DNA from: Burkholderiales bacterium 70-64
Lineage (GTDB): Bacteria; Pseudomonadota; Gammaproteobacteria; Burkholderiales; Burkholderiaceae_E
Reading direction: 5' to 3'
Length of the DNA stretch: 37,542 nucleotides
Assembly: GCA_001898645.1 (NCBI GenBank)
Contig: MKUQ01000048.1
Span: 1 to 37,542 of the forward strand
The position numbers and the translations under genes are program-made. Below are positions 10,080-25,742 of the stretch, one piece after another. Under the pieces are notes generated by a model. That model searched no databases. It was not told the DNA's origin and saw only the letters and a list, made by a program, of their open reading frames with translations. How positions within the stretch are numbered: the stretch's first letter is position 1; the number at the start of each line of letters is the position of its first letter.

Positions 10080-10283
10080 ATGGCAACAGGCACCGTCAAA
10101 TGGTTCAACGACTCCAAGGGGTACGGCTTCATTACCCCTGACGATGGAGGGGAGGATCTGTTCGCGCACTTTTCCGCGATCCAGATGAACGGCTTCAAGA
10201 CGCTCAAGGAAGGCCAGAAGGTCCAGTTCGACGTGGTCGCTGGTCCCAAGGGCAAGCAGGCCTCGAACATCAAGGAAAACTGA
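10080..10283 (+). CDS. cspA: Cold-shock protein (CspA family)
   Basis: Single OB-fold nucleic-acid-binding protein of 67 residues that acts as an RNA chaperone. [18 protein letters not shown] opens it, with the RNP1 motif KGYGFITP near residues 14-21 and RNP2 DLFAHFSAI near 29-37. The C-terminal [10 protein letters not shown] matches the family. The start at 10080 is set by this conserved N-terminus. The open frame extends upstream with no similarity. Linkage to clpS-clpA is common in betaproteobacteria. Family assignment is certain, but the exact paralogue (cspA, cspD or other) is not. Confidence 0.95.
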
Positions 10284-10292
10284 TGCCGTCGC

Positions 10293-10321
10293 GGCTGCCG
10301 GCGGCCCGCGCCCCGGCAGCC
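10293..10321 (+). terminator. Hairpin after cspA
   Basis: Perfect 9-bp inverted repeat GGCTGCCGG / CCGGCAGCC with an 11-base GC-rich loop, starting 9 bases after the cspA stop. No T-run follows, so it is a candidate terminator or stabilising stem rather than a textbook intrinsic terminator. Confidence 0.45.
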
Positions 10322-10438: not shown

Positions 10439-11668
10439 TCAACCCGGATCGAGCGACGGCTCCGTAGCGGCCACGGGGCCGAAGGCTCCCCCGGCGCGCA
10501 TGGCGGCCAGCCGCGCGTCGTCGTAGCCGAGCACGGTCCGCAGCACTTCCTCGGTGTGCCGGCCGAGATGGGGCAGCACGTTTCGCGCCTCCGTACGGCT
10601 CTCCGAGAGCCGGTACGGAGGATTCGGGACCTCGAACGGCTCGCCCTGCGTCCCGATGGCGGCCATCGATCCGCGGTGCTGCGCCTGCGGATCCGACATC
10701 GCCTCGCCCACGGTCCGGTAGCGCGAGCAGGGAACCCCTGCCTGCATCAGCGTGCGCTCGCACTCGAGCGCGGTGCGCTGCGAGGTCCAGTCCTCGACGA
10801 TGCGCAGCAGCGCGTGCCAGTTCGCCTCCTTCTCGGCGACGGTGGCGAAGCGGGGATCGGTCTTGCCCTGCGGAAACCCGATCGCGTCGAACAGCGCCGA
10901 CAGGTTGCGCGGCGTGATGGCAGCGACCATCACCCAGCCGTCGCTGGCGCGCACCGGCTGGTAGACCTGGCGCTGCCGCTCGGCGGGGAATTGCGCGTTC
11001 TGCAATTCGTAGATCAGCATCCCCAGCACCGAGTCCATCAGCGACACGTCGATGCTCTGCCCGCGCCCGGTGCGGCATCGCTGCAGCAGCGCCGTCTGGA
11101 TGGCGCTCGCGGCGTGGATCGCCCCCAGGACATCGGCGATGAAGATGCCGTTGTTCGCCGGCTGCGAGCCTTCCCCCTGATAGCGCGTGAAGGCGTCCTC
11201 GTAGCCCGATGCCGCGTGGATGATCGGCGCATAGGCCGGCGCCTGGGACATCGGCCCCGTCTGGCCGAAGCCGGAGATCGAGCAGTAGATCAGCCGCGGG
11301 TTGGCGCGCGCGAGCGTCTCGTAGTCCAGGCCCAGCCGTTTCATCACGCCGGGCCGGAAGTTCTCGACCACGACGTCGGCCTGGCCGGCGAGCTCGAGCG
11401 CCGCCTGCCGCCCCGCCGGCGTGTGCAGATCGAGCACGGTGCTGCGCTTGCCGCAGTTCATGGAGGCGAAATAGGTGCTGATGCCGGCGCGAAACGGCGG
11501 GCGCTGGCGCACCATGTCGCCCTCGGGCGGCTCGATCTTGATCACGTCGGCGCCCGCATCGGCGAGGATGCGCGTGCACATCGGGCCGGACATCACGATC
11601 GTGAAGTCGACGACGCGAATGCCGGCGAGTGCGTCCACCCGCGCGGGCCCGGGACTGGATTCCATCAT
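10439..11668 (-). CDS. CaiB/BaiF class III CoA-transferase, copy 1
   Basis: Expected to move CoA between carboxylic acids without a free acyl-phosphate stage. The 409 residues are standard. Family signatures are present: VVDFTIVMSGPMCTRILADAGADVIKIEPPEGD-type N-terminus, VENFRPGVMKRLGLDY near residue 101, ISGFGQTGP near 131, and NGIFIADVLG with Asp179 in the position of the acyl-anhydride-forming aspartate. TGRGQSIDVSLMD follows. The start at 11668 has a GAGG sequence six bases upstream. It is the last gene of a minus-strand run that begins with an acyl-CoA dehydrogenase at 16228, and lies 11 bases after the fused dehydrogenase. It is clearly related, by eye about half identical, to the copy at 23534-24766. 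The acid substrate cannot be read from the sequence. Confidence 0.9.
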   Translation of the reverse strand: MMESSPGPARVDALAGIRVVDFTIVMSGPMCTRILADAGADVIKIEPPEGDMVRQRPPFRAGISTYFASMNCGKRSTVLDLHTPAGRQAALELAGQADVVVENFRPGVMKRLGLDYETLARANPRLIYCSISGFGQTGPMSQAPAYAPIIHAASGYEDAFTRYQGEGSQPANNGIFIADVLGAIHAASAIQTALLQRCRTGRGQSIDVSLMDSVLGMLIYELQNAQFPAERQRQVYQPVRASDGWVMVAAITPRNLSALFDAIGFPQGKTDPRFATVAEKEANWHALLRIVEDWTSQRTALECERTLMQAGVPCSRYRTVGEAMSDPQAQHRGSMAAIGTQGEPFEVPNPPYRLSESRTEARNVLPHLGRHTEEVLRTVLGYDDARLAAMRAGGAFGPVAATEPSLDPG

Positions 11669-11679
11669 TTGCTTCCTCG

Positions 11680-13953
11680 CTATCTGGGCAGGCCGAGCGC
11701 GCGCTGCGCGATCAGGCTGCGCTGGATTTCATTGGTGCCGATGCTGATCACCCACATCAGCGAGTGGCGCAGCTTCTGCTCGAGCCGCCCGCGCATCGGA
11801 GCCCCGGCGGCACCGGCCGACAGGGTCGCCTCCATGCCGAGGATGTCGAGCGCCGACTCGTGGAAGCGCTCCATCAGCTCGCCGGCGTACACCTTGGTGA
11901 CGGCCGCTTCCCAGGTCGGCATCCCGCCCCGCGCCAGGATCCGGACGCACTCGAGCGCGAGCTGGCGGCCCGCCTCGATCTGCGCCGCGTAGCTGCCGAT
12001 GACGTCGCGCACCCGCGGATCGAGCCGCAGCGGCCGGCCGCCGACCTCGATCCCGCGGATGCAGGCGCACAGCTCCTCGAACTGGCGTGCGAGCTTCATC
12101 AGGATGCCGGCGCCGACGTACGCGCGCTCGGTGCCCAGCGATCCGGTGAGGATCTCCCAGCCGCGGCCGGGCTCGCCCACCAGGGCATCGGCCGGAACGC
12201 GCACGTCGTCGAAGAAGGTGTTGCAGAACTCGCCGTCGTACATCGTCCTGATCGGCCTGCGCGTGATGCCGGGCGTGTCGGTATGCACGACGAACATGCT
12301 GATGCCGGCGTGGGGCGGCTTCGCGGCGGGATCGGTGCGCGCGGCCAGCCACATGTAGTCGCTCCAGTAGGTGGTGGTCCAGATCTTCTGGCCGTTGATC
12401 ACCCATTCGTCGCCGTCGCGCACGGCGGTGGTGCGGATCGAGGCCAGGTCGGAACCCGAGTCGGGTTCGCTGTACCACATGCCGTACATGACTTCGCCGC
12501 GCAGCAGCTCCGGCAGGTAGCGCGCCTGCTGTTCGGGGCGGCCGAAGCTCATCCACGCGGCCGCCTGGATCGGCGCGCCGGCACGGGGCGCATCGACGCG
12601 ATTCATTTCCTCCAGAAAGGCCATCCAGTGGTAAGGCGAGCGTTCCTGGCCGCCGAAGCGCGCCGGCCAGGTCAGGCCCAGCCATCCGGTCTCGCCGAGC
12701 TCACGGGCGAAGCGCGGCTCGTAGTCGCGATGCGCGTTCTCCGACGCCTCGTAGGCCTCGCGCCGCTCGCTCGGCCAGTGCTCGGCGAGCCATGCGCGCA
12801 CCTCCCGCCGGAACGCGTTGGCATCCTCGCCCAGGTCGAGCTCGGGCAGCTCGCCGGGAGTTTCCGCCAGGTAGCGCGCCGCGAGCGCCTCGTGCGCGGC
12901 GTGCGCGCCGCCGTGCCGGGCGACGTCCAGGTGCACGCGCCTGAAGTGGCGCGGCGCCTCGTGGTCCTCGGCATAGCCGATGGCGCCGAAGGCATGATGG
13001 GTTTCGAGCGAGACCTGGCGCAGCGACGGGCCCGCATGGGCGAAGGCGGCCGCCGCGAAGCTGCGCCAGTCGTCGACGCGGCGGTCGTGATGGGCGGCGG
13101 CGTTGTCCAGGCTCGCCTGCACCGCCCGCAGCGCGATCAGGTTGTTGGCGAGCTTGTGCTGGATCGCCTGGAAACGGCCGATCGGCTGGCCGAACTGCCT
13201 GCGCTCCTTCGCATACTGCACGACGAGCTCGAACGAGCGGTCCGCTGCACCCCAGGCGCGGGCGGCGTGCGCCAGGCGCGAGATCGACAGCAGATCGCGC
13301 AGGTGCGCCCGGTCCACCCCGACGACGACGGCGGGCACGTCGCGCAGGTCGACGCGGCACAGTCCATCCGTTCCCATCGCGCGAGTCGGCGTGATCGTGA
13401 CGCCCGCGGCCGTCGCCTGGACGATCGCGAGCAGCGGTTCGCAGCCGGCCACCACCACGACGAAGTGCGTCGCCGCCGGTGCGCCTTCGACGAAATCCAG
13501 CTGCCCGGATACGCAGCCGTGCGCAAGCGACGCCCTGCCGGTCGCGCGGTCGGGGTCGACGTCACCGAACGACAGGCAAGGATAGGCCTCACCGCCCTCG
13601 ATATCGGCGAGCAGGCGATCGATCGCCGCCGCGTCGCCGCGGCGATCGCCGAGCGCCAGGTTGAGGAGCACCGCATCGATCAGCGGCGCCGGGCACGCCG
13701 CCCGGCCCAGTTCCTGCAGCACCACCAGCAGCTCGCGCACGCCGCCCTCGGCCGGCTCGCTCCCGAGCGCCGCGACGCCCTGCCCGGCGAGCTGCCGCCA
13801 GATGCGCCGGAGCGCGGCATGGTCCGCGCCCCGCTCGACCGCCCCCGCGACCGGCCAGGCCTGCGCGAGGAAGCGCCGGACCGAATCCCGCAGCAGGCCC
13901 CGCTCCTCGTCGGTGGGAAGGATCGCGGCGGGCGATTGCGCATCATCGGGCAT
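11680..13953 (-). CDS. Fused double acyl-CoA dehydrogenase
   Basis: A 757-residue protein made of two acyl-CoA dehydrogenase units, about twice the usual 380. The first (about 1-365) is a divergent unit with AKERRQFGQPIGRFQAIQHKLAN near 262-284 and lacks the normal FAD-side motifs. The second (about 370-757) is more canonical: YSEPDSGSDLASI near 465, WVINGQKIWTT near 487, and a C-terminal IGTNEIQR. The glutamate usual in xEGTxxIQR is replaced by isoleucine. GTERAYVG near 617 may supply the base, as in isovaleryl-CoA-type enzymes. The layout recalls the heteromeric FadE pairs of steroid side-chain degradation, here joined in one chain. A bulky cyclic substrate is an inference. The start at 13953 follows GGAGAGA. 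Confidence 0.85.
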   Translation of the reverse strand: MPDDAQSPAAILPTDEERGLLRDSVRRFLAQAWPVAGAVERGADHAALRRIWRQLAGQGVAALGSEPAEGGVRELLVVLQELGRAACPAPLIDAVLLNLALGDRRGDAAAIDRLLADIEGGEAYPCLSFGDVDPDRATGRASLAHGCVSGQLDFVEGAPAATHFVVVVAGCEPLLAIVQATAAGVTITPTRAMGTDGLCRVDLRDVPAVVVGVDRAHLRDLLSISRLAHAARAWGAADRSFELVVQYAKERRQFGQPIGRFQAIQHKLANNLIALRAVQASLDNAAAHHDRRVDDWRSFAAAAFAHAGPSLRQVSLETHHAFGAIGYAEDHEAPRHFRRVHLDVARHGGAHAAHEALAARYLAETPGELPELDLGEDANAFRREVRAWLAEHWPSERREAYEASENAHRDYEPRFARELGETGWLGLTWPARFGGQERSPYHWMAFLEEMNRVDAPRAGAPIQAAAWMSFGRPEQQARYLPELLRGEVMYGMWYSEPDSGSDLASIRTTAVRDGDEWVINGQKIWTTTYWSDYMWLAARTDPAAKPPHAGISMFVVHTDTPGITRRPIRTMYDGEFCNTFFDDVRVPADALVGEPGRGWEILTGSLGTERAYVGAGILMKLARQFEELCACIRGIEVGGRPLRLDPRVRDVIGSYAAQIEAGRQLALECVRILARGGMPTWEAAVTKVYAGELMERFHESALDILGMEATLSAGAAGAPMRGRLEQKLRHSLMWVISIGTNEIQRSLIAQRALGLPR

Positions 13954-14020
13954 CGCTGTCTCTCCGATCGTGATGGCGCCGGGTCGTGATGGAGCCGGGC
14001 AAGGCGCGGCGATGGCCGCG

Positions 14021-14992
14021 TCACTCGGCCTTGATGCCGGCCTCCCGGATCACCGTTCCCCAGCGCTCGACCTCGGCGACGTTGCGCTCGCGCAGCTGCT
14101 CGGGCGTGCTGGACACCGCGACCAGCCCGAAGGTATTGAGCCGCTGCTGCAGGTCCGGCAGCGCCAGTGCCTTGTTCAGCGACTTGTTCAGCCTCGCGAT
14201 CACGTCGGGCGGCGTGCCGGCGGGAGCGAGCAGCGCGAACCACGACTCCGCCTGGTAGCCCGGCAGGACCGTCGAGACGGTCGGCGTGTCCGGATACAGC
14301 GGCGATCGCGCGGGCGTGCCGACGCCGAGCAATTTCAGCTTGCCCGAGGCGATATGGCTGTTCATCGCCGACGAGGGAGAGGTGATGAGCAGCTTCACCT
14401 CGCCGCCGAGCACCGCATTCAGCGTCGGCGCCTGTCCCTTGTACGGGACGTGCACCATCTGCAGCCCGGCAGCGCGCAGGAACAGCTCGGTGGAGAGGTG
14501 GCCGAACGAACCGGGCCCGGCGCTGGCGTACTCGAGCTTGCCGGCATTCTTCTTCGCGTAGTCGATGAACCCCTTCAGGTCGTCGACCGGCAGCTCGCCG
14601 TTGACGACGACGAGCATCGGCGAGGAAGAGACCATCCCGATCGGCGCGAAGTCGCGCAATCCATCGTAACCGGCGCCCTTTTGCAGGATCGGGGTGGTCG
14701 CGACCAGGCCGTTGTTGATGAACACGATCGTGTAGCCGTCGGGCGCCGCATGGGCCGCGTCCTTCATCCCGATCGCGCCGCCCGCGCCGGCCTTGTTGTC
14801 CACGACGATGGGCTGACCGAGATCCTCCTGCATCGGCACCTGCAGCACTCGCGCCATGATGTCGGTGGTGCCGCCGGGGGCATAGGGCACGACGAGCCTG
14901 ATCGGCCGCGACGGATAGCCCGGCTGCGCCATTGCGCCGGCAGCGAAGGCGCACAGCAGTACCGCGCCCAGATGTTGCAACAGTCTCTTCAT
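14021..14992 (-). CDS. Tripartite tricarboxylate transporter (Bug/TctC family) substrate-binding protein, copy 1
   Basis: Periplasmic carboxylate-binding protein of 323 residues. A signal peptide ends near AGAMA-QPG (residue 22). The mature part begins YPSRPIRLVVPYAPGGTTDIMAR, the carboxylate-binding beta-strand and loop of the Bug family. DNKAGAGGAIG near 65 and HVPYKG near 181 are also typical. The start has a strong TAAGGAGGAG ribosome-binding site. No TctA or TctB membrane gene is present, which is common for this expanded family in Burkholderiales. Such proteins may work with shared membrane parts or as sensors. Sitting between two acyl-CoA dehydrogenase genes suggests it binds the acid degraded by this operon. 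Confidence 0.93.
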   Translation of the reverse strand: MKRLLQHLGAVLLCAFAAGAMAQPGYPSRPIRLVVPYAPGGTTDIMARVLQVPMQEDLGQPIVVDNKAGAGGAIGMKDAAHAAPDGYTIVFINNGLVATTPILQKGAGYDGLRDFAPIGMVSSSPMLVVVNGELPVDDLKGFIDYAKKNAGKLEYASAGPGSFGHLSTELFLRAAGLQMVHVPYKGQAPTLNAVLGGEVKLLITSPSSAMNSHIASGKLKLLGVGTPARSPLYPDTPTVSTVLPGYQAESWFALLAPAGTPPDVIARLNKSLNKALALPDLQQRLNTFGLVAVSSTPEQLRERNVAEVERWGTVIREAGIKAE

Positions 14993-15088
14993 GGTTCTCC
15001 TCCTTAATGAAAACCGGGAACGGAATTCCGGAACGACGCAAGCCCGGCCGCGCAGCGGACGCGGCGCGGAGCCGGCATCTCCGGCGAC

Positions 15089-16228
<1,140 letters not shown>

Positions 16229-16291
16229 CCAGGCTGCTCCGGGAGGCGCCCTGCCCGCAGGCAGGGCGCCGATGACAAAGGGGTCTTGTAT

Positions 16292-16310
16292 TGAATGGAC
16301 CCTCCATTCA
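16292..16310. promoter_or_regulatory. Perfect 19-bp dyad, probable GntR operator
   Basis: TGAATGGACCCTCCATTCA: 8-bp arms around a 3-base centre, in the 126-bp gap between divergent genes starting at 16228 and 16355. The divergent unit encodes a GntR regulator, so autoregulation and control of both operons is the natural reading. The right half (TCCATTC) recurs in other promoters of the block. Confidence 0.65.
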
Positions 16311-16354
16311 TACTATTGCGACCCCACCCCGGATGTCAACAAAGGATTCGAAAG

Positions 16355-17158
16355 ATGGACTACTCCCGCTACGAGTGCCTGAAGATCGAGAAAGCCGATC
16401 GCGTCGCCACGGTGACGCTGAACCGCCCCGAGACGGGCAACCGCATCGAGCACCGCTTCCATGTCGAGCTGCAGGACATCTGGGCCGACCTGGCGCGCGA
16501 CAAGGAGGTCAACGCGATCCTGCTCACCGGCTCGGGCAAGTACTTCAGCGTCGGCGGCAACGTGAAGGGCATGCAGGACCGGCCCGGCGGCGACGTCTTC
16601 GAGGAAGGCGAGATGCTCGAGCCCAGCGGCGGCCGGCGCATCGTGCAGAACATCCTCGACTGCGAGCAGCCCATCGTGTGCGCGATCAACGGCGACTGCA
16701 TCGGGCTGGCGGCCACGGTGGCGCTGCTGTGCGACATCACGGTCGCATCGCGCACGGCGCGCATCGCCGATCCGCACGTGAAGATCGGCCTGGTGGCGGG
16801 CGACGGCGGGGCGGTGATCTGGCCGATGCTCGTCGGCCCGAACCGGGCGAAGGAGTTCCTGATGCGCGGCAACCTGATCGATGCGGTCGACGCCGAGCGC
16901 ATGGGCCTCGTAAACTACGCCCTGCCGCAGGAGCAGGTGCTGCCCAAGGCCCGCGAACTCGCGCAGGAGCTTGCCGACGGCGCCCCCTGGGCGATCCGCT
17001 GGACCAAGCTCGCGGTCAACAAGGCAATCAAGGACCAGTTCAACCTGATCATGGATGCATCCTACGCGCTCGAGATGTGCACCTTCCAGACCAGCGATCA
17101 TCGCGAGGCGGTCCGCGCCTTTGTCGAGAAGCGCAAGCCGCGCTTCACGGGCCGCTGA
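16355..17158 (+). CDS. Enoyl-CoA hydratase/isomerase family protein with atypical active site
   Basis: Crotonase-fold protein of 267 residues. VATVTLNRPETGNRI near residue 17, a GSGKYFSVGGNVKGM oxyanion-hole segment near 59-73 and CAINGDCIGLAATVALLCDITVA-type helix (109-131) place it in the family. Aligning by eye to rat mitochondrial hydratase, Glu144 is replaced by Thr121 and Glu164 by His141. An aspartate (Asp150, in AGDGG) is close by and may act instead, as in other branches of the superfamily. Hydration is therefore not assured. Isomerase, hydrolase or another CoA chemistry is possible. The start at 16355 follows AAGGA. The next gene starts one base after its stop, so it is co-transcribed with a GntR regulator. 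Confidence 0.88.
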   Translation: MDYSRYECLKIEKADRVATVTLNRPETGNRIEHRFHVELQDIWADLARDKEVNAILLTGSGKYFSVGGNVKGMQDRPGGDVFEEGEMLEPSGGRRIVQNILDCEQPIVCAINGDCIGLAATVALLCDITVASRTARIADPHVKIGLVAGDGGAVIWPMLVGPNRAKEFLMRGNLIDAVDAERMGLVNYALPQEQVLPKARELAQELADGAPWAIRWTKLAVNKAIKDQFNLIMDASYALEMCTFQTSDHREAVRAFVEKRKPRFTGR

Positions 17159-17159
17159 C

Positions 17160-17966
17160 ATGGACGCCCCCCCGCGCCCGATCGCCTTCGATCCGATCCG
17201 GCCGCGCCGCGCCTTCGAGGAGATCTGCGAGCGCATCCGCGACCAGCTCGCAGCCGGCGCGCTCAAGCCGGGCGACAAGCTTCCGGCCGAGCGCGAGCTG
17301 GCCCTGCAGCTCGGCGTGGGCCGCAACGCGGTGCGCGAAGCGCTGCACACGCTGGAGTTCGCCGGCATCGTCGAGCTGCGCAAGGGCGTCAAGGGCGGGG
17401 CGTTCATCCGCCAGGGCGATCCGGGCAGCATGACGCAGGTCATGCAGGACCTCATGCACCTGGGGTCGATCTCGCTGAGAGAGCTCACCGAGGCGCGCCT
17501 GCATATCCAGGACACCGTCGTGCGGCTCGCCTGCGAGCGCGCGACCCGTGCCGACCTGGAGGCGCTGGCGGCCAACGTCGACGCCACGGAGAAGGTGACG
17601 CGCTCGGGCGACTACGTCGCGCGCATCGAATCCTCGCGGGAGTTCTACCGCCTGCTCGCCGCCGCGAGCCACAACGCGGCGCTGTGCCTGATCGTCGATT
17701 CCCTGACCGACATCCTGATGAAGTACCTGCACGCCCGCGTGTCCGCGGGCGCGCGCCTGAAACCGGACCTGGTCCAGGCGCGCAGGCGCTTCCTCGGCCT
17801 GCTCGCCTCGCGCGACGCAGAGGCAGCGGCGCTCGAGATGCGCACGCATCTCAAGGGCGTGCACCGGCTGTTGACCGGCGACGACAGGGAGGTGGGTACC
17901 CCCGCCGGCGCGGCACCGAAGGCGGCCGGGCCGCCGTCGCGGCGCCGCATCCGGGCGGCCGCCTGA
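17160..17966 (+). CDS. GntR/FadR-family (FCD domain) transcriptional regulator 1
   Basis: A 268-residue regulator. The winged helix-turn-helix (about 14-80) includes GDKLPAERELALQLGVGRNAVREALHTLEFAGIVELRKG-type sequence, the GntR signature. An all-helical FCD ligand-binding domain (about 100-235) has the usual EARLHIQDTVVRLACERAT first helix. The C-terminus is a basic Ala/Pro-rich tail. The start at 17160 is one base after the hydratase stop, so expression is coupled. FCD regulators usually bind carboxylates, often with a metal ion, and are released from DNA. The perfect dyad at 16292-16310 is the likely operator. Confidence 0.93.
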   Translation: MDAPPRPIAFDPIRPRRAFEEICERIRDQLAAGALKPGDKLPAERELALQLGVGRNAVREALHTLEFAGIVELRKGVKGGAFIRQGDPGSMTQVMQDLMHLGSISLRELTEARLHIQDTVVRLACERATRADLEALAANVDATEKVTRSGDYVARIESSREFYRLLAAASHNAALCLIVDSLTDILMKYLHARVSAGARLKPDLVQARRRFLGLLASRDAEAAALEMRTHLKGVHRLLTGDDREVGTPAGAAPKAAGPPSRRRIRAAA

Positions 17967-17978
17967 GGCAACCCGGCG

Positions 17979-18818
17979 CTACGCCACGGCGGCCGATGGC
18001 GACCGCAGGCTGTCGCTCGAGCCGCCGCGCCTGCGCACGCTCTGCAGGCGGGAGCAGGCGAGCACGGCCGCACCGAGGGCGCCCGCGTACGGGCCCAGCT
18101 CCGGATCGAAATTGATCGGCTGCCCCATGCACCGTTCCAGGGCCATGCGCATCCCCGGATTCGCCCCGATGCCGCCGGTCAGGGTCACCTGCTGCTCGAC
18201 GCCGAGGCGCTTGAGCAGGGCCTGGGCGCGCGAGGCGATCGACATCATGGCGCCCATCAGGATGTCCTCGATGCGCTTTCCGGCCGTCACGAGATTGATG
18301 ATCTCCGACTCCGCCAGGACGGCGCACACCGAGCTGATCTGCTGAGGCTCCTGCGCTTCGACGGCCAGCGCCCCGATCTCCGCGATCGAGAGCTCCAGAT
18401 ACTTGGCCACGCGCACGAGAAAGGCCCCCGCCCCGGCCGCGCACTTGTCGTTCATGCGCAGCAGCTTCACTTGGCCCGTATCCGCGATGCGCATGGCGCG
18501 AGTGCTCTGCGCGCCGATGTCCAGCACGCTGCGGGTCTCGGGGAACAGGCAGCGGGCGCCCTGCCCGTTGGCAGTGAGGTCGGTCATCTGGATATGCCTG
18601 AAGGACACCGTGGACCGGCCGAAGCCGGTGCTCGCCACGTAGTCGACATCCTCCCGATTCGCCCCTGCCTGCGCCAATGCCTGGTCGAAAGCAGCTCCCG
18701 CGGCGCCTTCCAGGTTCGAGCCCGTACGCACCAGGCCCTTGCCCAGGATCGTCGAGCCGTGCTCCAGGACGATCGCCTTGGTGTTGCTGCTTCCTACGTC
18801 GATGCCGGCCGTGATCAT
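17979..18818 (-). CDS. Benzoyl-CoA reductase-like ATPase subunit (BzdQ/BcrD-like)
   Basis: ASKHA-fold ATPase of the BcrA/BadF/HgdC family, 279 residues. It would couple ATP hydrolysis to electron transfer from a [4Fe-4S] cluster into the catalytic subunits. GIDVGSSNTKAIVL (5-18) is the phosphate-1 loop, DIGAQSTRAM (100-109) the phosphate-2 region, and LTGGIGANPG (near 213) the adenosine motif. Cys126 in NDKCAAGAG and Cys165 in SSVCAVL are the two cluster ligands. GAQS in place of the GGQD of the companion protein suits the second, non-identical ATPase of class I benzoyl-CoA reductases. It is last in the minus-strand unit after three related genes, 34 bases behind its partner. Alternative: activator of a 2-hydroxyacyl-CoA dehydratase, less likely because two ATPases occur side by side. 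Confidence 0.83.
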   Translation of the reverse strand: MITAGIDVGSSNTKAIVLEHGSTILGKGLVRTGSNLEGAAGAAFDQALAQAGANREDVDYVASTGFGRSTVSFRHIQMTDLTANGQGARCLFPETRSVLDIGAQSTRAMRIADTGQVKLLRMNDKCAAGAGAFLVRVAKYLELSIAEIGALAVEAQEPQQISSVCAVLAESEIINLVTAGKRIEDILMGAMMSIASRAQALLKRLGVEQQVTLTGGIGANPGMRMALERCMGQPINFDPELGPYAGALGAAVLACSRLQSVRRRGGSSDSLRSPSAAVA

Positions 18819-18852
18819 CTCTTCCTCCGCAAATTTCGATCCGGACGGCCGG

Positions 18853-19644
18853 CTACGCCGTCGCCAGCGCCCGCTCGAGCGCGAACACGCAGGCGCCGAT
18901 CGCGCCGGTGTAGTGCGATTCCTCGCTGACGTTCAGGGAGACGTCCAGCCCCTCCTCGAGCGCCAGCACCATCCCCTGGTTGCGCGAGACGCCGCCGGTG
19001 AAGGTGACTTCGTCGTTCATGCCGACCCTGCGCAGCAGCGAAGCCGTGCGCGCGGCGATCGCATGGTGCATCCCCATCAGGATGTCCTCCAGCTTCTTCT
19101 TCTGCGCCAGGTAGGAGAGGATTTCCGTCTCCGCGAATACGGTGCACGTGCTGTTGATGTCCACCGGCCGCGTCGCCTGCAACGACAGCGGGCCGAGATC
19201 GTCGAGCGGCAGGTCCAGGACCTGCGCCGCCACGCCGAGGAAGCGGCCCGTGCCCGCCGCGCACTTGTCGTTCATCACGAAGTCGAGCACCTCGCCGTCC
19301 TCGCCGATGCGGATTCCCTTGGTGTCCTGCCCCCCGATGTCCACGACCGTCCGCGTGCGCGGGAAGATGAAGTGCGCCCCCTTCGCGTGGCAGGTGATCT
19401 CCGTGATCTGCGTATCGCCGAAAGTGATCTTGTAGCGGCCGTAGCCGGTGCCCACCGTGTACCGGATGTCCTCGCGGTCGAGCCCGGCATCGGCCAGCGC
19501 CGCCTCGAACGCCCGGTCGGCCGACTTGACCGTGTTCGCTCCGGTGTCCACCAGGCCGCGGCCCACGATGCGCCGGTGCTCGTCGAGGATGATGCCCTTG
19601 GTCTGGGTGGATCCCGAATCCACCCCCGCCGCGTAGACCGTCAT
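18853..19644 (-). CDS. Benzoyl-CoA reductase-like ATPase subunit (BzdP/BcrA-like)
   Basis: A 263-residue ASKHA ATPase, close in size to Bzd[15 protein letters not shown] at 7-20 binds phosphate, [10 protein letters not shown] at 102-111 is the canonical second phosphate motif, and [11 protein letters not shown] (near 215) the adenosine site. Cys128 (NDKCAAGTG) and Cys167 (NSTCTVF) should ligate half of a [4Fe-4S] cluster shared with the neighbouring ATPase. The start at 19644 overlaps the stop of the upstream catalytic-subunit gene by four bases, so the two are translationally coupled. By family knowledge such a pair forms the ATP-driven electron-activating module of benzoyl-CoA reductase. 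The actual substrate of this complex is not known. Confidence 0.85.
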
Positions 19645-21008
19645 TGCGCCCCCCCTTTCGACTCCGCCTTGTCCGCGGAGGCGCCGCGTATGTATTTCTT
19701 CTCCTGCAGCGCTTCCATGAACGCCTCGATGCGATTGCGGACCTGGGCTTCCGAGAAATAGCGCGGATCGGCGATGTCCGATTCGAGCATCAGCACGGGC
19801 ACGCCCTCGCGGCTGAGGTGCTCGCGCAGGTCGGCGAATCCGCCCGAGTTGAGCCGGCAGCTCTTGATGGCATGCAGCACGATGCCGTCCGCGCCGAAGC
19901 GCCGGATCAGGTCGAGCTGGTTTCCGATGTCGTCCTTGCCGCCCCACCAGCCCATCGACCACTGCGGCGCCTGCCGCGGATTGCGCGCGTGGAAGTAGTC
20001 CATCAGGCACTCGGCATAGCTCTCCAGGGGTCGATCGAGGTCGTACATGCGCGAGCGATAGGTGCCCCGCGTGCCCTGCATGAACTGCGGCGTGTAGACG
20101 AAGGTGGCTCCCCAGCGCCGGAACATCTCGGGGATCTTGCGGAAGTGCGGATAACAGGGCGCGCTCATCCACAACAGCCGGAACCGCTCCTCGGGCACGG
20201 CGCCGATGCCCTTGGCGATCCTGTCGTCGAGCTCCGCCTTGACCGACTCCAGGTAGGCCACGCCCTCCGGCGTCGCCTTGTGCGTCGTCATGGCGCCCAT
20301 GTAGCCGTAGCCGTCGAGCACGGCGTCGAACGGCGAAGGCACGTGCCGCGTCTTCTCGATGATCTCGCACCAGAGCTCGCCCATGCGATTGCCCAGGACG
20401 AGGTTGCGCTTGAACCTGTCTTCGTCGAACTTGCGCCCGGTCAGCTTCTCGCACGCGTCGATGAGCTCCTCGAGCTGCCTGACCACGTAGTCGCGGTCCT
20501 GCCGATACACCTCCTCGATGTCGTAGGGGTAGCCGCCGTCCTTCTTGAGGCGCACCGGATGATCCAGCGTGAAGACGGGGCAGCCCCAGAAGTCGTGGAT
20601 GACCTCCGACCACTTGTAGTAGGTATTGCACAGCGTATCGTTCACCACCAGGTCCGGCGGCGGAACCTTGCCGAGCGGATGCTCGTTCCCGCTCAGGTAC
20701 AGGCCAACGTCCGCGGTCACGTAGGAGCAGGTGTCGGCAGAGTAGCCGTAGTCCTCCGCCTTGCGGATGAAGGGCAGCGACGCCTTCTTGGCGGCCATGT
20801 TCGCGCTGCTGATCTCCGGGTAGACGAGGTACATGTCGAATGCCCTGAGGATCTCGACCGGGCCCAGCACGAACAGGTAGCAGATCTTGCGGCCTGCCTC
20901 CTTGGCCTGCCACGCCTCGGCGAAGGCCGAGTTCACGAGGTTCTTCGAAGCCCCTCGCACGGCGTCCGCCTCGCCCTGCGCGGCTGCCGCCGGTATCGAT
21001 GTGCTCAT
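19641..21008 (-). CDS. Benzoyl-CoA reductase-like catalytic subunit (BzdO/BcrB-like)
   Basis: A 455-residue member of the 2-hydroxyacyl-CoA dehydratase D-component / benzoyl-CoA reductase catalytic family. The size equals BcrB/BzdO. Visible landmarks are [19 protein letters not shown] near residue 38, [16 protein letters not shown] near 88, [11 protein letters not shown] near 122, [10 protein letters not shown] near 285 and [12 protein letters not shown] near 390. The cysteines in these strings are candidates for [4Fe-4S] ligands. The start at 21008 overlaps the stop of the upstream subunit gene by four bases, and its own stop overlaps the next gene. The gene order (C/N, B/O, A/P, D/Q) is that of bcrCBAD and bzdNOPQ. 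The enzyme family is oxygen-sensitive, but nothing in the sequence shows when it is made. Confidence 0.83.
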
Positions 21009-22228
21009 CGCGCTGCCTCCGTCGTCGTGATTTCCGCTACCGGCGCCGCCACCGGATCCGGCCTCTGCTCCTGCGAATAGAACAGGATCGCCTCGGCGAA
21101 GGTCTCGGTCTGCGTGCGCACGTTGTCGAAGTCCTTCATCCGCTCCTGGAACTCCATCTGCAGGCACGACACGCCCTCCTTCTCCGCGCGCTTCAGGTGG
21201 TGGACCTGATCGTCGAGGCCCGGCTCGCAGAACTTCGCCGGACTGAGGACGATCGCCTCCGCATTCGAGGATCGGTACTTCGCCATCAGCCCGTCGGACT
21301 TGAGCCGGCGCATGTCGTGCTGCACGGAGCTGTAGGTGGAGCCGTTGCAGTAGCTCGCGGCCAGATTCAGGATCGGATCGCCGTCCTCGGGCACGTCGCC
21401 GGAGAACAGCCTCGCCCCGACCGCGAGATCGTCGTCGACGACGTAGCACGCCTCCTCGATGGCCCGCAGGAAGTCGATGGGCGGCTGCTCGCAGAATCCG
21501 CCCTCGAAGACGACGCGGATCTTGTCGAGGGGGCGCGCCTCCCTCTCGGAGGCGAGCGCGATGAACTCCCGCAGCAGCGGCAGGTGCTCCTCGACCGGCA
21601 TGAGCATGCCCGCGCGCACCAGCACGTAGCACTCCACTGCGGAGACCAGCCACGGCGACGCGCGGCGCATCTCGTAGAGCCGGCGCACCAGGCGGCGGCT
21701 CTGGTTGTAGGTCCGGATGCTGTCGCGGATCTGCTCGTCGCCGACGGCATGCCCGACCTCGGTCTCGACGAGCACGCGCAGCCGGCCGAACTCCCGCTGC
21801 AGGTACGGAACCGCGAGCCCGGTCCGCAGGTTGGCCGGCAGGTAGAGGATGTCCGTCAGCAGCCCGGGGACATTGCGCTCCATCAGCCCGGGCATGTGCC
21901 GCGCGGCATCGCAGATCGGGGTTCCGATGAAGACGTCGAGGAAGTCGAACCGGCCGCTCAGGCCCTGCTCGAGCGTCGACTTGCAGATCGAGCACATGAA
22001 CGAATACATGTGCGTATCCGCGCGCTTGAGCACGACGCGATTGCCGCCGCCGAAGATGCCGATCGGCAGCATGCCCGCCGCGTGCGCGATCTCGACCGGA
22101 AAATAGACCGGGAAGTAGCCCAGCACCTTGTTGCCCGCGCGCCTGCCTTTCCACTGCCGGCAGGCGTTCAGCGATGCGTCCTCCACCTGGTCCCGGCACT
22201 GCCCAACGATGTCGTCGATTCTGCTCAT
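21005..22228 (-). CDS. Benzoyl-CoA reductase-like catalytic subunit (BzdN/BcrC-like)
   Basis: A 407-residue protein of the same catalytic family. The segments [20 protein letters not shown] (near 33-52), [14 protein letters not shown] (near 77), [19 protein letters not shown] (near 92) and [16 protein letters not shown] (near 249), followed by YVVDDDL, agree with what I recall of Azoarcus BzdN more than with 2-hydroxyacyl-CoA dehydratase subunits. Cysteines in these segments probably hold the catalytic [4Fe-4S] cluster. The start at 22228 is preceded by GAGAGAGG. This is the first gene of a four-gene operon. Its promoter region (22229-22320) is AT-rich and carries two copies of a GGTTGAWCC-type motif. 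A database comparison would be needed to separate benzoyl-CoA, substituted aryl-CoA and other reductases. Confidence 0.85.
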
Positions 22229-22292
22229 CAGGGTCCGCCTCTCTCCGATTGATCTGCCGATCGAAGGATCTCGGCAGCCGCTTGCCCTATTA

Positions 22293-22319
22293 TTGGTCCA
22301 ACCTTTATTTGGTTGATCC
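22293..22319. promoter_or_regulatory. Two operator-like motifs before the reductase operon
   Basis: TTGGTCCAACC at 22293-22303 (its complement is GGTTGGACCAA) and GGTTGATCC at 22311-22319, the latter followed by ATTTTATT. They lie 65-91 bases upstream of the bzdN-like start in an AT-rich gap. They match motifs at 22406 and 24822 and resemble GntR-type operators. Confidence 0.6.
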
Positions 22320-22405
22320 ATTTTATTAAAGAGATAGATCGGTGTCAACGCCGCCGCAATCCCATGACGCAATCATTGACTTTCGATCGAGCCATACCTA
22401 TCATA

Positions 22406-22418
22406 GGTTGATCCATTC
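22406..22418. promoter_or_regulatory. Operator-like motif before the second TctC gene
   Basis: GGTTGATCCATTC, followed by TATAC, about 95 bases upstream of the gene at 22513. It shares 12 bases with the copy at 22311. Confidence 0.55.
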
Positions 22419-22512
22419 TATACAACAAGAACAGTGCCACGCAGCGGCGACACGAAGCCGCAACGATCACGCAACGGGCTTCCCGAGTGCACGGACACCA
22501 AGGAGACAGGAG

Positions 22513-23478
22513 ATGGGACGATTGCTTTCGCGCATGGCGGCGCTCGCCGCATTCGCAGTGCTTGCCTCGCCTCTCGCGCAGGCGCAGGACTGGCCGTCGA
22601 AGCCGATCAGGCTGGTCGTGCCCTATCCGCCGGGCGGCACGACCGACCAGATGGCCCGCATCCTGCAGCGCCAGCTCACCGAGAGACTCGGGCAACCGAT
22701 CATCGTCGAGAACAAGGCCGGCGCCGCGGGCCTGATCGGCATCGAGACGGTCGCGCATTCCGCGCCCGACGGCTATACCCTGGCCTTCCTCAATACCGGG
22801 AACGTGATCGCGCAGGTCTTCAAGAAGGTGCCGTACGATCCGGTCAGGGACTTCCAGCCCATCTCGTTCGTGGCCACCTTTCCCCTCATCCTGTCGGTCC
22901 CCAATTCGCTGCCCGTCAACAACGTGCGGGACCTCATCGCGCTGGCGCGCACCAGGCCCGACCACATCAACTACGGCTCCACCGGAGTGGGCGGGTTCTC
23001 GCACCTCACCAGCGAGTACTTCAACGTGGCCGCCGGCATCAAGGCGACCCATGTGCCCTACAAGGGAGGCGCCCCCGGGGTCATGGCGCTTCGCTCCGGC
23101 GAGATCGAGATGATGTTCGTCACGCCGATCGACGGGGAGGCCCATCGGCGCGCCGGCGAGATCAAGTACCTCGGCCTGACCTCCACTGCGCCGAACGAGC
23201 TGCTCCCCGACGTACCTCCGATCGCCGACACGCTCCCGGGTTTCAACAGCGTGGTGTGGTTCGGAGTGCTCGCGCCGAGCGGCGTGCCGGCGAACGTGGT
23301 CGACAGACTCTCGTCGGCGATCGGTTGGGCAGTGCAGCAGCCCGACGTGAAGAGCAATTTCGCCAATCTGCGCGTGAATCCGGTCAGCAATACGCCGGGG
23401 CAGTTCCGCGACGTGATCAAGGCGGAAATCAGGCACTGGGCCGGCATCGTCAGGGAGGCGAACCTGAGCGCCGACTGA
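22513..23478 (+). CDS. Tripartite tricarboxylate transporter (Bug/TctC family) substrate-binding protein, copy 2
   Basis: Periplasmic binding protein of 321 residues. A signal peptide (residues 1-24, ending AQAQ) precedes DWPSKPIRLVVPYPPGGTTDQMAR, the ligand-carboxylate loop of the family. ENKAGAAGLIG and THVPYKGGAPG follow. The start at 22513 has AGGAGACAGGAG upstream. It is transcribed divergently from the reductase-like operon, with a shared motif in the gap. It is similar to the protein at 14021-14992 but not a recent duplicate. No membrane subunits are adjacent. Its place between the reductase and a CoA-transferase gene suggests it binds the same acid or a related one. Confidence 0.93.
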   Translation: MGRLLSRMAALAAFAVLASPLAQAQDWPSKPIRLVVPYPPGGTTDQMARILQRQLTERLGQPIIVENKAGAAGLIGIETVAHSAPDGYTLAFLNTGNVIAQVFKKVPYDPVRDFQPISFVATFPLILSVPNSLPVNNVRDLIALARTRPDHINYGSTGVGGFSHLTSEYFNVAAGIKATHVPYKGGAPGVMALRSGEIEMMFVTPIDGEAHRRAGEIKYLGLTSTAPNELLPDVPPIADTLPGFNSVVWFGVLAPSGVPANVVDRLSSAIGWAVQQPDVKSNFANLRVNPVSNTPGQFRDVIKAEIRHWAGIVREANLSAD

Positions 23479-23533
23479 CCCGTTCCCGCCGGATCGACCG
23501 GCGCCGCGGGGACATCCGCGGCGCCGGGCAAGC

Positions 23534-24766
23534 TCATTCACAACGAACGGCCGATTCCGCTTCCGCGGGCCAGATCATCGCGCCGCTGCGACCCAGGGCT
23601 GCGATCCTCTCGCCGCCATACCCGAGCAGGCCGGCCAATATCGCCGGACCGTCCTCCCCGAGCGCAGGCACCGAGTTGCGCGCGCAGGCAGCCGTGTTGG
23701 CGAAGCGGAACGCCGGATTGGGCACCTCGATCGGGCCGGCCCCGTCATCGATGATCGCCAGCGTCCCGCGCTCGCGCAGCGGCGGCAGCTGCATCGTCTC
23801 GCGCACGGTGAAATAGCGCGAGCAAGGCACGCCCGCCGCGTTCATCGCCGCCTCGCACTCGGCGGCGCTGCGCACGCCGGCCCACTCGTCCAGCAGCCGC
23901 ATCAGCTCCGACCAGTAGTGCTCGCGTGCACGGACCGTCGCGAAGCGCTCGTCGCCGATCCACTCCGGGTGACCCGTGCCGCGCGCAAGCGCCTCGAAGC
24001 TCTTCTGGCTCACCGGCGCGATCAGGAGGAAGCCGTCGCTCGCCCTGGTCGGCGTATACAGCGGCCGGCGACGCTCCGCCGGAAACTGCGCTTCCTGGCA
24101 CTCGTACACCAGCAGGCCCACCATCGCATCGAGCAGGGAAAGATCGACGCTCTCTCCCCTTCCGGTGCGCGCCACGCCCAGCAGCGCAGCCTGGATCGCG
24201 CCGAACGCGAGCGAGCCGCCGAGCACGTCGGCGACGAAGATGCCGTTCTTCATCGGGCGATCGAGGTCGCCTTCCTGGTAGTCGAGATTGGCCATGTCGT
24301 AGCCGCTCGCGGCGTGCAGCACCGGCGCATAGGCGCTGCGGCCCGCCCACGAGCCCTGCTGCCCGAAGCCGGAGATGGCGCAATACACGAGCCTCGGATT
24401 CAAGGCCGACAGTGCTTCGTAGTCGAGCCCGAATCGCTTCATCACGCCGGGACGATAGTTCTCGACGACCACGTCGCACTTGGCGGCGAGCTCGCGAACC
24501 AGCGCAACGGCTTCCGGACGTTTCAGGTCGAGAGCGATGCTCTTCTTGCCGGCGTTGAGCTGGGCGAAATAGGCGCTTCGGCCGTTGCGGCTCGGCGGCC
24601 GCGTGCGGACGAGATCGCCCTCCGGCGATTCGACCTTGATGATCTCGGCGCCCAGGTCCGCCATCAGCCGCGTGGCATAGGGGCCCGACATCATGGTGGT
24701 GAAGTCCAGCACCCGCACGCCGTCGAGAATGCCGGGCTTGGCGCAAGCGACCATCGGAGACTCCAT
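23534..24766 (-). CDS. CaiB/BaiF class III CoA-transferase, copy 2
   Basis: A 410-residue class III CoA-transferase. VLDFTTMMSGPYATRLMADLG near residue 19, VENYRPGVMKRFGLDY near 101, CAISGFGQQG near 129 and NGIFVADVLGG with Asp180 (the expected nucleophile) are all intact, so it should be active by itself. It matches copy 1 over its whole length, including the NGIFxADVLG and MKRxGLDYE segments. Two such proteins in one block could be separate enzymes or the two subunits of a heteromer, as described for succinyl-CoA:phthalate CoA-transferase. It stands alone on its strand, with a palindromic operator-like site 56-76 bases before its start. Confidence 0.9.
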   Translation of the reverse strand: MESPMVACAKPGILDGVRVLDFTTMMSGPYATRLMADLGAEIIKVESPEGDLVRTRPPSRNGRSAYFAQLNAGKKSIALDLKRPEAVALVRELAAKCDVVVENYRPGVMKRFGLDYEALSALNPRLVYCAISGFGQQGSWAGRSAYAPVLHAASGYDMANLDYQEGDLDRPMKNGIFVADVLGGSLAFGAIQAALLGVARTGRGESVDLSLLDAMVGLLVYECQEAQFPAERRRPLYTPTRASDGFLLIAPVSQKSFEALARGTGHPEWIGDERFATVRAREHYWSELMRLLDEWAGVRSAAECEAAMNAAGVPCSRYFTVRETMQLPPLRERGTLAIIDDGAGPIEVPNPAFRFANTAACARNSVPALGEDGPAILAGLLGYGGERIAALGRSGAMIWPAEAESAVRCE

Positions 24767-24821
24767 CGCGGGAGACCGGCTTGTGCCGCGGTCGGCGGCA
24801 GTCGCGCGATCTTTTTAATTA

Positions 24822-24842
24822 GGTTGAACCATTTTAAATGGT
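24822..24842. promoter_or_regulatory. Operator-like palindromes before CoA-transferase copy 2
   Basis: GGTTGAACC (24822-24830, perfect GGTT-N-AACC dyad) overlaps ACCATTTTAAATGGT (24828-24842, perfect 7+1+7 palindrome). AT-rich flanks on the minus strand (TAATTAAAAAG) could hold the promoter. GGTTGAACCATTTT is the same motif as at 22311 and 22406. Confidence 0.6.
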
Positions 24843-24896
24843 AGGGTCTCCGTGTAGCGCCTGTCAACGGCGAGCGTCCTCCTGCCCGCCGCCGGA

Positions 24897-25742
24897 TCAG
24901 CCTGCGGCCGGCCCTGCAGCGTTCTTGCGGCGCGACCGGCCAGGCAGGCGGGGAGCCGTCTTCCGTGCGGCTTCGTGCTCGCGCGGCTCGGCCTCGATGC
25001 GCGAGAGGTAGCTGCGTTGCAGGCGTTTCAGGCACGCTTCCATTTCACGGACCGCCGCATCGGCATCGCACTCCACCAGATGCTTCATGAAGCGGCGCCG
25101 GGACGGGAGCACGAAGGCGTTCTCCGAGTCGCCGATCTTCCGGATGAGATGCGCCAGCACCTCCAGCATGCCGTTCATCACGATCACCATGATGGGGTTG
25201 CCGGTCATCCGCGCGAGAATGCGGTGGAACTCGAGATGGCGCTCCGACCGCAGCGCGAAATCGCCCTGCCTGCCCGCCTCTTCCGCCAGCCGGATGTTCT
25301 CCTCGAGCTCGTCGATGCCCTGCTGCGTCGCGCGGACGCAGGCCTCCCGCACGATGATCGACTCCAGCCAGATGCGCGCCTCGGTCAGATGCGCCGGCCC
25401 GATCACGCCGAGGTGGTACATGTCGAGCAGGCCGGTGGTCACGGCCTCGCCGCCGCCCTCGCTGATGAACGCGCCGCCGGTGGCGCCCTTCTGCAGCCGG
25501 ATGAGGCCCGCGTTTTCCAGGGAACGCAGCGCTTCGCGCAGCGTGTTGCGCGAAACCCCGAACTGCTCCGACAAGGCGCGCTCCGAGGGCAACCGGCTGC
25601 CGACACGCAGCCGGCCCTCGGCGAGCTCGGTCCGGATCTGGGCGGCGATCTCCTCGAAGGCCCGGGCGGAACGTACGGCACGGAACTTGGCGTGGGGCGA
25701 AGCCGCGTCCGGATCGGAGGGGGAAGGATGGCTCTCCTGCAT
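24897..25742 (-). CDS. GntR/FadR-family (FCD domain) transcriptional regulator 2
   Basis: A 281-residue regulator. The winged helix (about 26-95) carries GSRLPSERALSEQFGVSRNTLREALRSLENAGLI-type sequence. The FCD domain (about 115-245) begins LTEARIWLESIIVREACVRAT. The tail after 245 is basic and low complexity. It is 18 bases downstream of the next regulator, so the two probably share a transcript. It is similar to regulators 1 and 3, including a GATGGAFI-type wing shared by all three. It may read one of the block's acids or CoA esters and bind the GGTTGAWCC motifs. Which regulator binds which site is unknown. Confidence 0.92.
   Translation of the reverse strand: MQESHPSPSDPDAASPHAKFRAVRSARAFEEIAAQIRTELAEGRLRVGSRLPSERALSEQFGVSRNTLREALRSLENAGLIRLQKGATGGAFISEGGGEAVTTGLLDMYHLGVIGPAHLTEARIWLESIIVREACVRATQQGIDELEENIRLAEEAGRQGDFALRSERHLEFHRILARMTGNPIMVIVMNGMLEVLAHLIRKIGDSENAFVLPSRRRFMKHLVECDADAAVREMEACLKRLQRSYLSRIEAEPREHEAARKTAPRLPGRSRRKNAAGPAAG

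Follow-up and report, generated by a model that had tools for sequence, protein, structure and literature searches.

The four-gene set

The 37,542-nucleotide contig MKUQ01000048.1 of Burkholderiales bacterium 70-64 (contig C48 of its genome; hereafter the window) carries four genes for a putative member of the class I, ATP-dependent benzoyl-CoA reductase (BCR) family, two encoding catalytic subunits (C and B) and two encoding ASKHA ATPases, the activators (A and D). Coordinates and Pfam matches confirm the initial annotation, which had described four minus-strand genes of these kinds and sizes.

21005..22228, minus strand: C subunit (BcrC/MbdN-like, electron-transfer catalytic subunit), 407 aa; HGD-D 1e-60; top match in the Protein Data Bank (PDB) MbdN 9g87, E 1.7e-90
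19641..21008, minus strand: B subunit (BcrB/MbdO-like, active-site subunit), 455 aa; HGD-D 4.6e-65; top PDB match MbdO, E 4.7e-82
18853..19644, minus strand: A subunit (ASKHA ATPase/activator), 263 aa; BcrAD_BadFG 1.1e-68; PDB matches MbdQ 6.5e-104, then HadI 5.9e-72
17979..18818, minus strand: D subunit (second ASKHA ATPase/activator), 279 aa; BcrAD_BadFG 2.3e-52; PDB matches MbdQ 4.5e-67, MbdP 1.9e-56

In the Pfam input the B gene was represented by its last 407 codons and the A gene (263 aa) was one codon short. The C/B and B/A junctions, two of the three, are 4-base overlaps (ATGA), as had been described, and a gap of 34 bases lies between A and D. Both activators keep the cysteines of the bridging cluster exactly where they had been placed (Cys128/Cys167 in A, Cys126/Cys165 in D), and the presence of two different ASKHA activators with these cysteines is as in class I BCRs. 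The G+C content at third codon positions is about 0.9 in C and D, the two genes covered by the measurement (A and B were merged into longer open reading frames). All four genes are under purifying selection, with ratios of nonsynonymous to synonymous divergence (dN/dS; this ratio and dS were computed with our own Nei-Gojobori script) of 0.14 for C, 0.09 for B, 0.07 for A and 0.14 for D when compared with their orthologues in a second genome, PRO11 (JAHDYE010000034.1).

The A subunit scores 232 bits on the BcrA model and 140 on the BcrD model, and the D subunit 162 bits on BcrD and 146 on BcrA. A thus resembles BcrA, and D resembles BcrD slightly more than BcrA, which gives the subunits the order of bcrCBAD. 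Gene order, subunit types and family are thus shared with BcrCBAD of the Thauera type, whose A subunit, however, has 447 aa as opposed to 263 aa here; the window set also misses every bcr equivalog cut-off (C 296 of 421, B 193 of 487, A 232 of 578 and D 162 of 313 bits).

Family placement and active site

In a phmmer search of the PDB, the top match was MbdN for C, MbdO for B and MbdQ for both A and D, with MbdP as the runner-up for D; the names of these methylbenzoyl-CoA reductase (MBR) structures (9G87, 9GAI, Thauera chlorobenzoica) were taken from the PDB match entries. MbdONPQ is the best solved match of all four subunits and has the same tetramer composition, but identity is only 41% for N and 37% for O. 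For C and B, the corresponding figures are 29% and 30% to HadCB of 2-hydroxyisocaproyl-CoA dehydratase (HadB over 267 columns) and 27% each to BzdNO. An AlphaFold2 model of B (predicted local distance difference test score 85.8, below 50 at residues 1-5 and 341-362) had MbdO (9gai_A) as its best Foldseek match by E-value (7e-31; root-mean-square deviation, rmsd, 3.2; template-modelling, TM, scores 0.83/0.86).

The initial annotation had assigned the set to the Azoarcus bzd type and gene order. The order is that of bcrCBAD, and the type is ruled out by identity, which for BzdNOPQ (Aromatoleum sp. CIB, 8S02) is below that for HadC/HadB; by equivalog scores (BzdN 115 of 454, BzdO 125 of 449, BzdQ at most 179 of 380 bits); and by cluster ligands, as only half of the six positions that ligate the [8Fe-9S] cluster in BzdN are aligned with a Cys in window C (C79, C106 and C334 kept; P40, A269 and Y299 elsewhere). 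The loss of the same three ligands is also seen in the MBR and Bcr rows shown.

Our main tree was built from concatenated C and B subunits (37 taxa, 783 columns). It unites the window pair and an MBR clade including MbdNO at 99/99, and within this clade the window and PRO11 pair at 100/100 on a stem of 1.39, which is the deepest MBR branch; the remaining 27 rows of the clade hold together at only 87/66. A FastTree analysis of 85 taxa placed the window alike (support 0.957). These placements should be read with three features of the data in mind: the tree program flagged BzdNO, HadCB and, near the window pair, the Bcr group as long branches, the outgroup chosen for the main tree did not form one side of a branch, and the sample was biased, as the relatives had been located via two motifs (531 in all) and the 80 most similar to the window were kept.

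Approximately unbiased (AU) tests rejected a grouping of the window set with HadCB, the one solved 2-hydroxyacyl-CoA dehydratase (HAD) used as reference (p 2.2e-5). The same held (p 1.0e-4) when HadCB was joined by the three-gene HAD-like sets (two catalytic subunits, one activase) that we observed on plasmid pAZKH of Azoarcus sp. KH32C (L149:7944-11448) and on pmega_1 of Rhodococcus ruber (L150:7977-11482), the latter an actinomycete case. A grouping with Bcr was weakly rejected (p 0.037), one with the mbd type gave p 0.022, and one with the orphan type on contig C33 of the same genome was not rejected (p 0.12). HAD-clade membership of the catalytic subunits, which the initial annotation had named as one outcome that would undo its proposal, is rejected by the AU test. 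In addition, Cys246 and Cys261 of the C subunit also occur in Bcr and nearly all MBR rows (82 and 80 of 82), and HadC and BzdN lack equivalents. By sequence, tree and subunit make-up, the window set is therefore assigned to the MBR branch as a predicted class I BCR-family tetramer.

The catalytic subunit of the bzd enzyme provides a reference for the active site. According to the report on it (PMC11971306), the catalytic cluster is bound by BzdO Cys95/128/380, Glu65 is an acid/base catalyst together with His131, the thioester oxygen is held by Tyr97, Tyr298 and Gln274, and the ring is lined by Trp46, Leu302, Leu383 and Tyr97. According to the alignment, window B keeps Glu65, Tyr96 (BzdO Tyr97) and the three cluster cysteines (Cys94/127/384), which it has in common with BzdNOPQ; His131 is Tyr130, as in many MBR rows. 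Three pocket positions depart from the rest of the clade. Where BzdO has Tyr298, the window and PRO11 have Gln308, and 79 of 80 other MBR-clade rows have Tyr (one gap); at BzdO Leu302 the window has Gly312, where 78 of 80 other rows have Ala (one Gly, one gap); and at BzdO Leu383 it has Asn387, where Val is found in 64 and Thr in 10 of the 80. Most MBR rows thus read Tyr/Ala/Val where the window set reads Gln/Gly/Asn. The loop before Glu65 is also one residue shorter than in all eight other MBR/Bcr rows shown. Q308, G312, N387 and the one-residue deletion are common to both members of the lineage.

Taken together, the window and PRO11 appear as a separate, long-stemmed MBR lineage that departs from its relatives in lineage, predicted pocket and gene unit. 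The initial annotation had suggested a reductase for a different aryl-, heteroaryl- or enoyl-CoA, possibly a new branch of the family. As to the branch, the set lies outside the clade of the solved 2-hydroxyacyl-CoA dehydratase; as to the substrate, the pocket changes suggest that it may differ.

Neighbouring modules, host genome and relatives

Pfam also confirms that the set is embedded among CoA-transferases and acyl-CoA dehydrogenases, as first annotated. The genes to its right and left are the following.

22513..23478, plus strand: TctC2, periplasmic receptor of a tripartite tricarboxylate transporter; PF03401 9.9e-67
23534..24766, minus strand: FrcII, class III CoA-transferase in the reductase unit; PF02515 3.7e-101; 80% in PRO11, order kept
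24897..25742, minus strand: GntR2, FCD-type regulator of the reductase unit; 78% in PRO11
17160..17966, plus strand: GntR1, FCD-type regulator of module 1; start set at Met 17160 beside the ECH stop, by analogy with PRO11
16295..17158, plus strand: ECH, enoyl-CoA hydratase/isomerase; 93% in PRO11
15089..16228, minus strand: ACAD, acyl-CoA dehydrogenase (NCBIfam)
14021..14992, minus strand: TctC1, second TctC receptor
11680..13953, minus strand: fACAD, two fused acyl-CoA dehydrogenase halves
10439..11668, minus strand: FrcI, class III CoA-transferase

We moved the start of TctC2 from 22342 to 22513, where a Met before a signal-peptide-like stretch may be the true start. By score ECH is not dch (67 bits on the dch model, cut-off 292.5). 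The top NCBIfam model of ACAD is cyclohexane-1-carbonyl-CoA dehydrogenase (393 bits, cut-off 650), followed by acryloyl-CoA reductase (391). Each half of fACAD matches a different chain of 6wy8/6wy9, and 4x28 is the best match of the second; we take all of these to be steroid side-chain enzymes. No substrate was named in the records around fACAD on plasmids of Variovorax paradoxus, Massilia and Sphingobium, and the Variovorax sp. PDNC026 record had no annotated feature at the fACAD region. DNA homology of the window to all four genus relatives fetched (eight were searched for ClpA) ends at 10,274-10,301, which marks the left side of the island, and no right-hand boundary was found in the stretches taken.

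The gene order of the window is matched in PRO11 (FrcI, fACAD, TctC1, ACAD, ECH, GntR1, D, A, B, C, TctC2, FrcII, GntR2), with the exception of about 5.6 kb inserted between GntR1 and D (L023:9569-14604). This insert has matches, all below cut-off, to the SdmA model (65 bits), which may represent a Rieske-type oxygenase, to a PaaE-type reductase, to a third CoA-transferase and to an Ltp-like thiolase; a comparable Rieske/oxidoreductase/TctC/CoA-transferase group lies near a fused acyl-CoA dehydrogenase on a Variovorax paradoxus plasmid. Despite the shared order, we dropped the idea that the whole 10.4-25.7 kb was inherited as one unit: the six genes FrcI to GntR1 have dS values of 0.36-0.51 to PRO11, and the seven genes D to GntR2 have values of 0.83-1.03, a twofold step between GntR1 and D with no overlap of the ranges (exact p 0.0012). 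Positions 10439-17966 and 17979-25742 are thus neighbouring catabolic modules with different histories, and because of this twofold difference we count only the second as the reductase unit, which we read as GntR2-FrcII-TctC2-C-B-A-D, in an order conserved in PRO11. Module 1 also exists free of the reductase in another family of the same order, where it is a conserved catabolic module (CoA-transferase, GntR, ECH, ACAD, TctC and fused ACAD at L141:8586-15940 and L143:5555-12949; ACAD 88% and ECH 81-82% identical to the window), and it is present in part on a short contig of G124. We also considered PRO11 as a genome with only this set, as searches with B (E 1e-10) and C found no other. That idea was dropped: PRO11 is 83% complete, and one of its contigs, 3,542 bases long, carries a bcr-type oah and breaks off about 400 bases past that gene; bcr is therefore probably present but unassembled.

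The host genome (4.72 Mb, 63 contigs, 98.3% complete, 2.1% contamination) contains eight HGD-D and eight BcrAD matches, which form four sets of four: the window set and those on contigs C39, C33 and C11. The C39 set is bcrCBAD, with C, B and A above their equivalog cut-offs (D was not run) and dch and oah above cut-off beside it (had was not looked for there). C11 carries an mbd-type cluster, with a C subunit 69.7% identical to MbdN and a B subunit 52.8% identical to MbdO; beside it lie oah and had above cut-off and, below cut-off, a dch-like gene (175 of 292.5 bits), an acyl-CoA ligase-like gene and a LivH-like permease. The mbd cluster of Azoarcus sp. CIB handles 3-methylbenzoyl-CoA (PMC4424350). 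In the mbd operon and in C11 the O-like gene comes first, whereas the N-like gene is first in the window set, beside which no mbd pathway genes were found. C33 (G000:C33:93118-97497, L019) holds a second orphan set, adjoined by a hemerythrin and a DUF3470 protein that may be a ferredoxin. Pieces matching nosZ lie at two contig ends (C35:1-1050 and C44:24-677, each below cut-off); these NosZ fragments suggest that the host is a denitrifier.

Identity of the window set (C/B/A/D) is 48/39/56/45% to C33, 43/41/60/37% to C11 and 34/34/45/35% to C39. The initial annotation had allowed that a pathway elsewhere in the genome might make the set an ordinary duplicate. The pathway is indeed largely there, on C39 and C11, but because the C subunit is only 34-48% identical to those of the other three sets, the window set is too diverged for an ordinary duplicate, and a simple duplication is ruled out. 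That the set is a superfluous or degenerating copy of an ordinary benzoyl- or methylbenzoyl-CoA reductase would be consistent with the two host clusters and the bcr-type oah kept in PRO11 but is also very improbable given this divergence, the separate lineage, the purifying selection, the pocket residues changed in both lineage members and the conserved linkage to a CoA-transferase and TctC.

The lineage is rare. Among the best 80 of 531 relatives in genome contigs, PRO11 is 79% identical and the next at most 53%. It occurs in 2 of 18 genomes of the genus, the window's own counted, and in the same two among 74 genomes of the family; in a class sample of 369 genomes, only the window's own passed E 1e-90. 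Viral contigs held no relative, plasmids gave 20 records with at best 33% identity, and a search of titles and abstract starts, thin on subscription journals, found no publication on this lineage.

The contexts of the 80 loci were labelled by best match at E 1e-15; as flank lengths differ, the counts are lower bounds. Many of the oah matches, at only 26-34% identity, may represent other crotonases. Among the 32 mbd-type loci, had was matched in at least 13 and an oah-like gene in at least 16 by one query and at least 5 by the other; two further groups have an oah-like match in 4/5 and 3/9 loci. The 30 beta-proteobacterial loci of the C33 type gave no match to dch, had or oah; the DUF3470 protein is present in 18 of them and hemerythrin in 19. 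A CoA-transferase match is present in PRO11, in one of the 30 C33-type and in two of the 32 mbd-type loci. The C33-type orphan set (30 loci, e.g. L035, L042, L050) is a widespread BCR-like set across Burkholderiales and Rhodocyclaceae. MBR-like sets also occur in metagenome-assembled genomes of Chloroflexi, Dormiibacterota, Gemmatimonadota, Ktedonobacteria, Acidimicrobiia and Marinimicrobia, many with dch/had matches nearby (L024-L031, L041, L085, L027, L033, L070, L095 and others).

Possible function

We consider it about an even chance that the set encodes an ATP-dependent class I aryl-CoA reductase of the MBR branch for a larger or more polar aromatic acid activated by a CoA-transferase. 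In such a heterotetramer, A and D would form an ATPase dimer bridging a [4Fe-4S] cluster via two conserved cysteines each and would push electrons from ferredoxin into C. C would hand them on to B, at whose [4Fe-4S]-water site, held by three Cys, an aromatic acyl-CoA would be reduced to a conjugated cyclic dienoyl-CoA. The packaging of a rare, divergent enzyme with its own uptake and activation genes suggests a compound other than the ordinary ones, and benzoyl- and methylbenzoyl-CoA would both be within reach of the C39 and C11 clusters. The substrate may be a larger or more polar acid, possibly dicarboxylic or ring-fused, taken up via the TctC2 receptor and activated by the neighbouring FrcII. 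ECH and the acyl-CoA dehydrogenases, in the adjoining module, might then hydrate and oxidise the product.

Several observations weigh against this proposal. The 27 window stretches run against Pfam, a scan that bypassed short and other open reading frames and could miss small proteins, contained no ligase, had, oah, dch or ferredoxin. The absence of ring-pathway, ligase and ferredoxin genes first annotated thus holds for these stretches; that the genome might lack a benzoyl-CoA pathway is not supported, as it has the C39 and C11 clusters. A dch match occurs in at least 21 of the 32 mbd-type loci and none in the window cluster, and all three Ktedonobacteria-type loci have dch and had matches. 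G207 and G244, which belong to another family, carry module 1 and gave no B-subunit relative at E 1e-10; the module may therefore sit beside the reductase by chance. Window B lacks the Tyr with which BzdO binds the thioester. Further points concern likeness to HAD. HadI, and not MbdP, is the PDB runner-up for A. HadB (1e-24) fits the B model with an rmsd of 2.6 and TM scores of 0.81/0.92, so that the target-normalised TM is 0.92 on HadB vs 0.86 on MbdO. The stretch around Glu65 is HAD-like, with YPE and AAKK as in HadB and a shortened loop. Finally, CaiB/BaiF CoA-transferase, short-chain dehydrogenase/reductase and acyl-CoA dehydrogenase genes are annotated near the HAD-like plasmid sets of Azoarcus sp. 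KH32C and Rhodococcus ruber.

These likenesses are what a dehydratase would predict, and this is the main rival: the CoA-transferase would make an aryl- or alkyl-2-hydroxyacyl-CoA, the tetramer would remove water by a ketyl radical, and ACAD would take the enoyl-CoA. The two kinds of enzyme differ in that an MBR-type reductase is a permanent tetramer spending ATP stoichiometrically on methylbenzoyl- or benzoyl-CoA, and a HAD dehydrates a 2-hydroxyacyl-CoA with ATP used only catalytically. HAD operons have this type of arrangement of CoA-transferase, dehydratase and acyl-CoA dehydrogenase, and HadBC-HadI has in common with the window set the B fold, the active-site Glu with some surrounding residues and the style of neighbourhood; the class III CoA-transferases and the lack of ring-pathway genes in the stretches scanned would also fit. 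However, HAD uses a single homodimeric activator and the window set has two distinct ones, C246/C261 are absent from HadC, and HadB retains Tyr where the window has Gln308. Over residues 41-80, B is nearer to C33 (45%), C11 (42%) and MbdO (38%) than to HadB (33%). Given also the rejected HadCB groupings, we regard a dehydratase as unlikely.

Little credence goes to another possibility, reductive deoxygenation, dehalogenation or reduction of a known non-benzoyl kind (of a hydroxy-, halo- or amino-aryl-CoA or a conjugated enoyl-CoA), with ring products passing to the C39 or C11 pathways. A class I BCR has been called promiscuous (PMC5742626), ring-pathway genes exist elsewhere in the genome, and Asn387 and Gln308, being polar, would match a substituent that is itself polar; the unit, though, has its own CoA-transferase and transporter receptor, not an aryl-CoA ligase.

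Returning to the aryl-CoA reductase, we speculate, as a bolder and doubtful extension, that class I ATP-dependent arene reductases might include a fourth type, first represented by the window and PRO11 sets, with a pocket remodelled for a bulky or polar CoA-transferase-activated ring acid (ring-fused, side-chain or dicarboxylic). Birch-type chemistry would then operate outside the benzoyl- and methylbenzoyl-CoA pathways and feed a route through fused acyl-CoA dehydrogenases, presumably of the kind known from steroid side chains.

The class I BCR reaction is among the hardest reductions in biology, and the characterised substrates in the literature covered are limited to benzoyl-CoA and its substituted forms. 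The divergent lineage described here is constrained, has its own CoA-transferase and transporter receptor and occurs in a genome that also carries the ordinary clusters; it is a direct lead to a new substrate for the enzymatic Birch reduction, and the pocket positions Q308, G312 and N387 open the substrate question to expression and structure work. Should the enzyme prove HAD-like after all, it would amount to a crossover in function from one half of the BCR/HAD family to the other.

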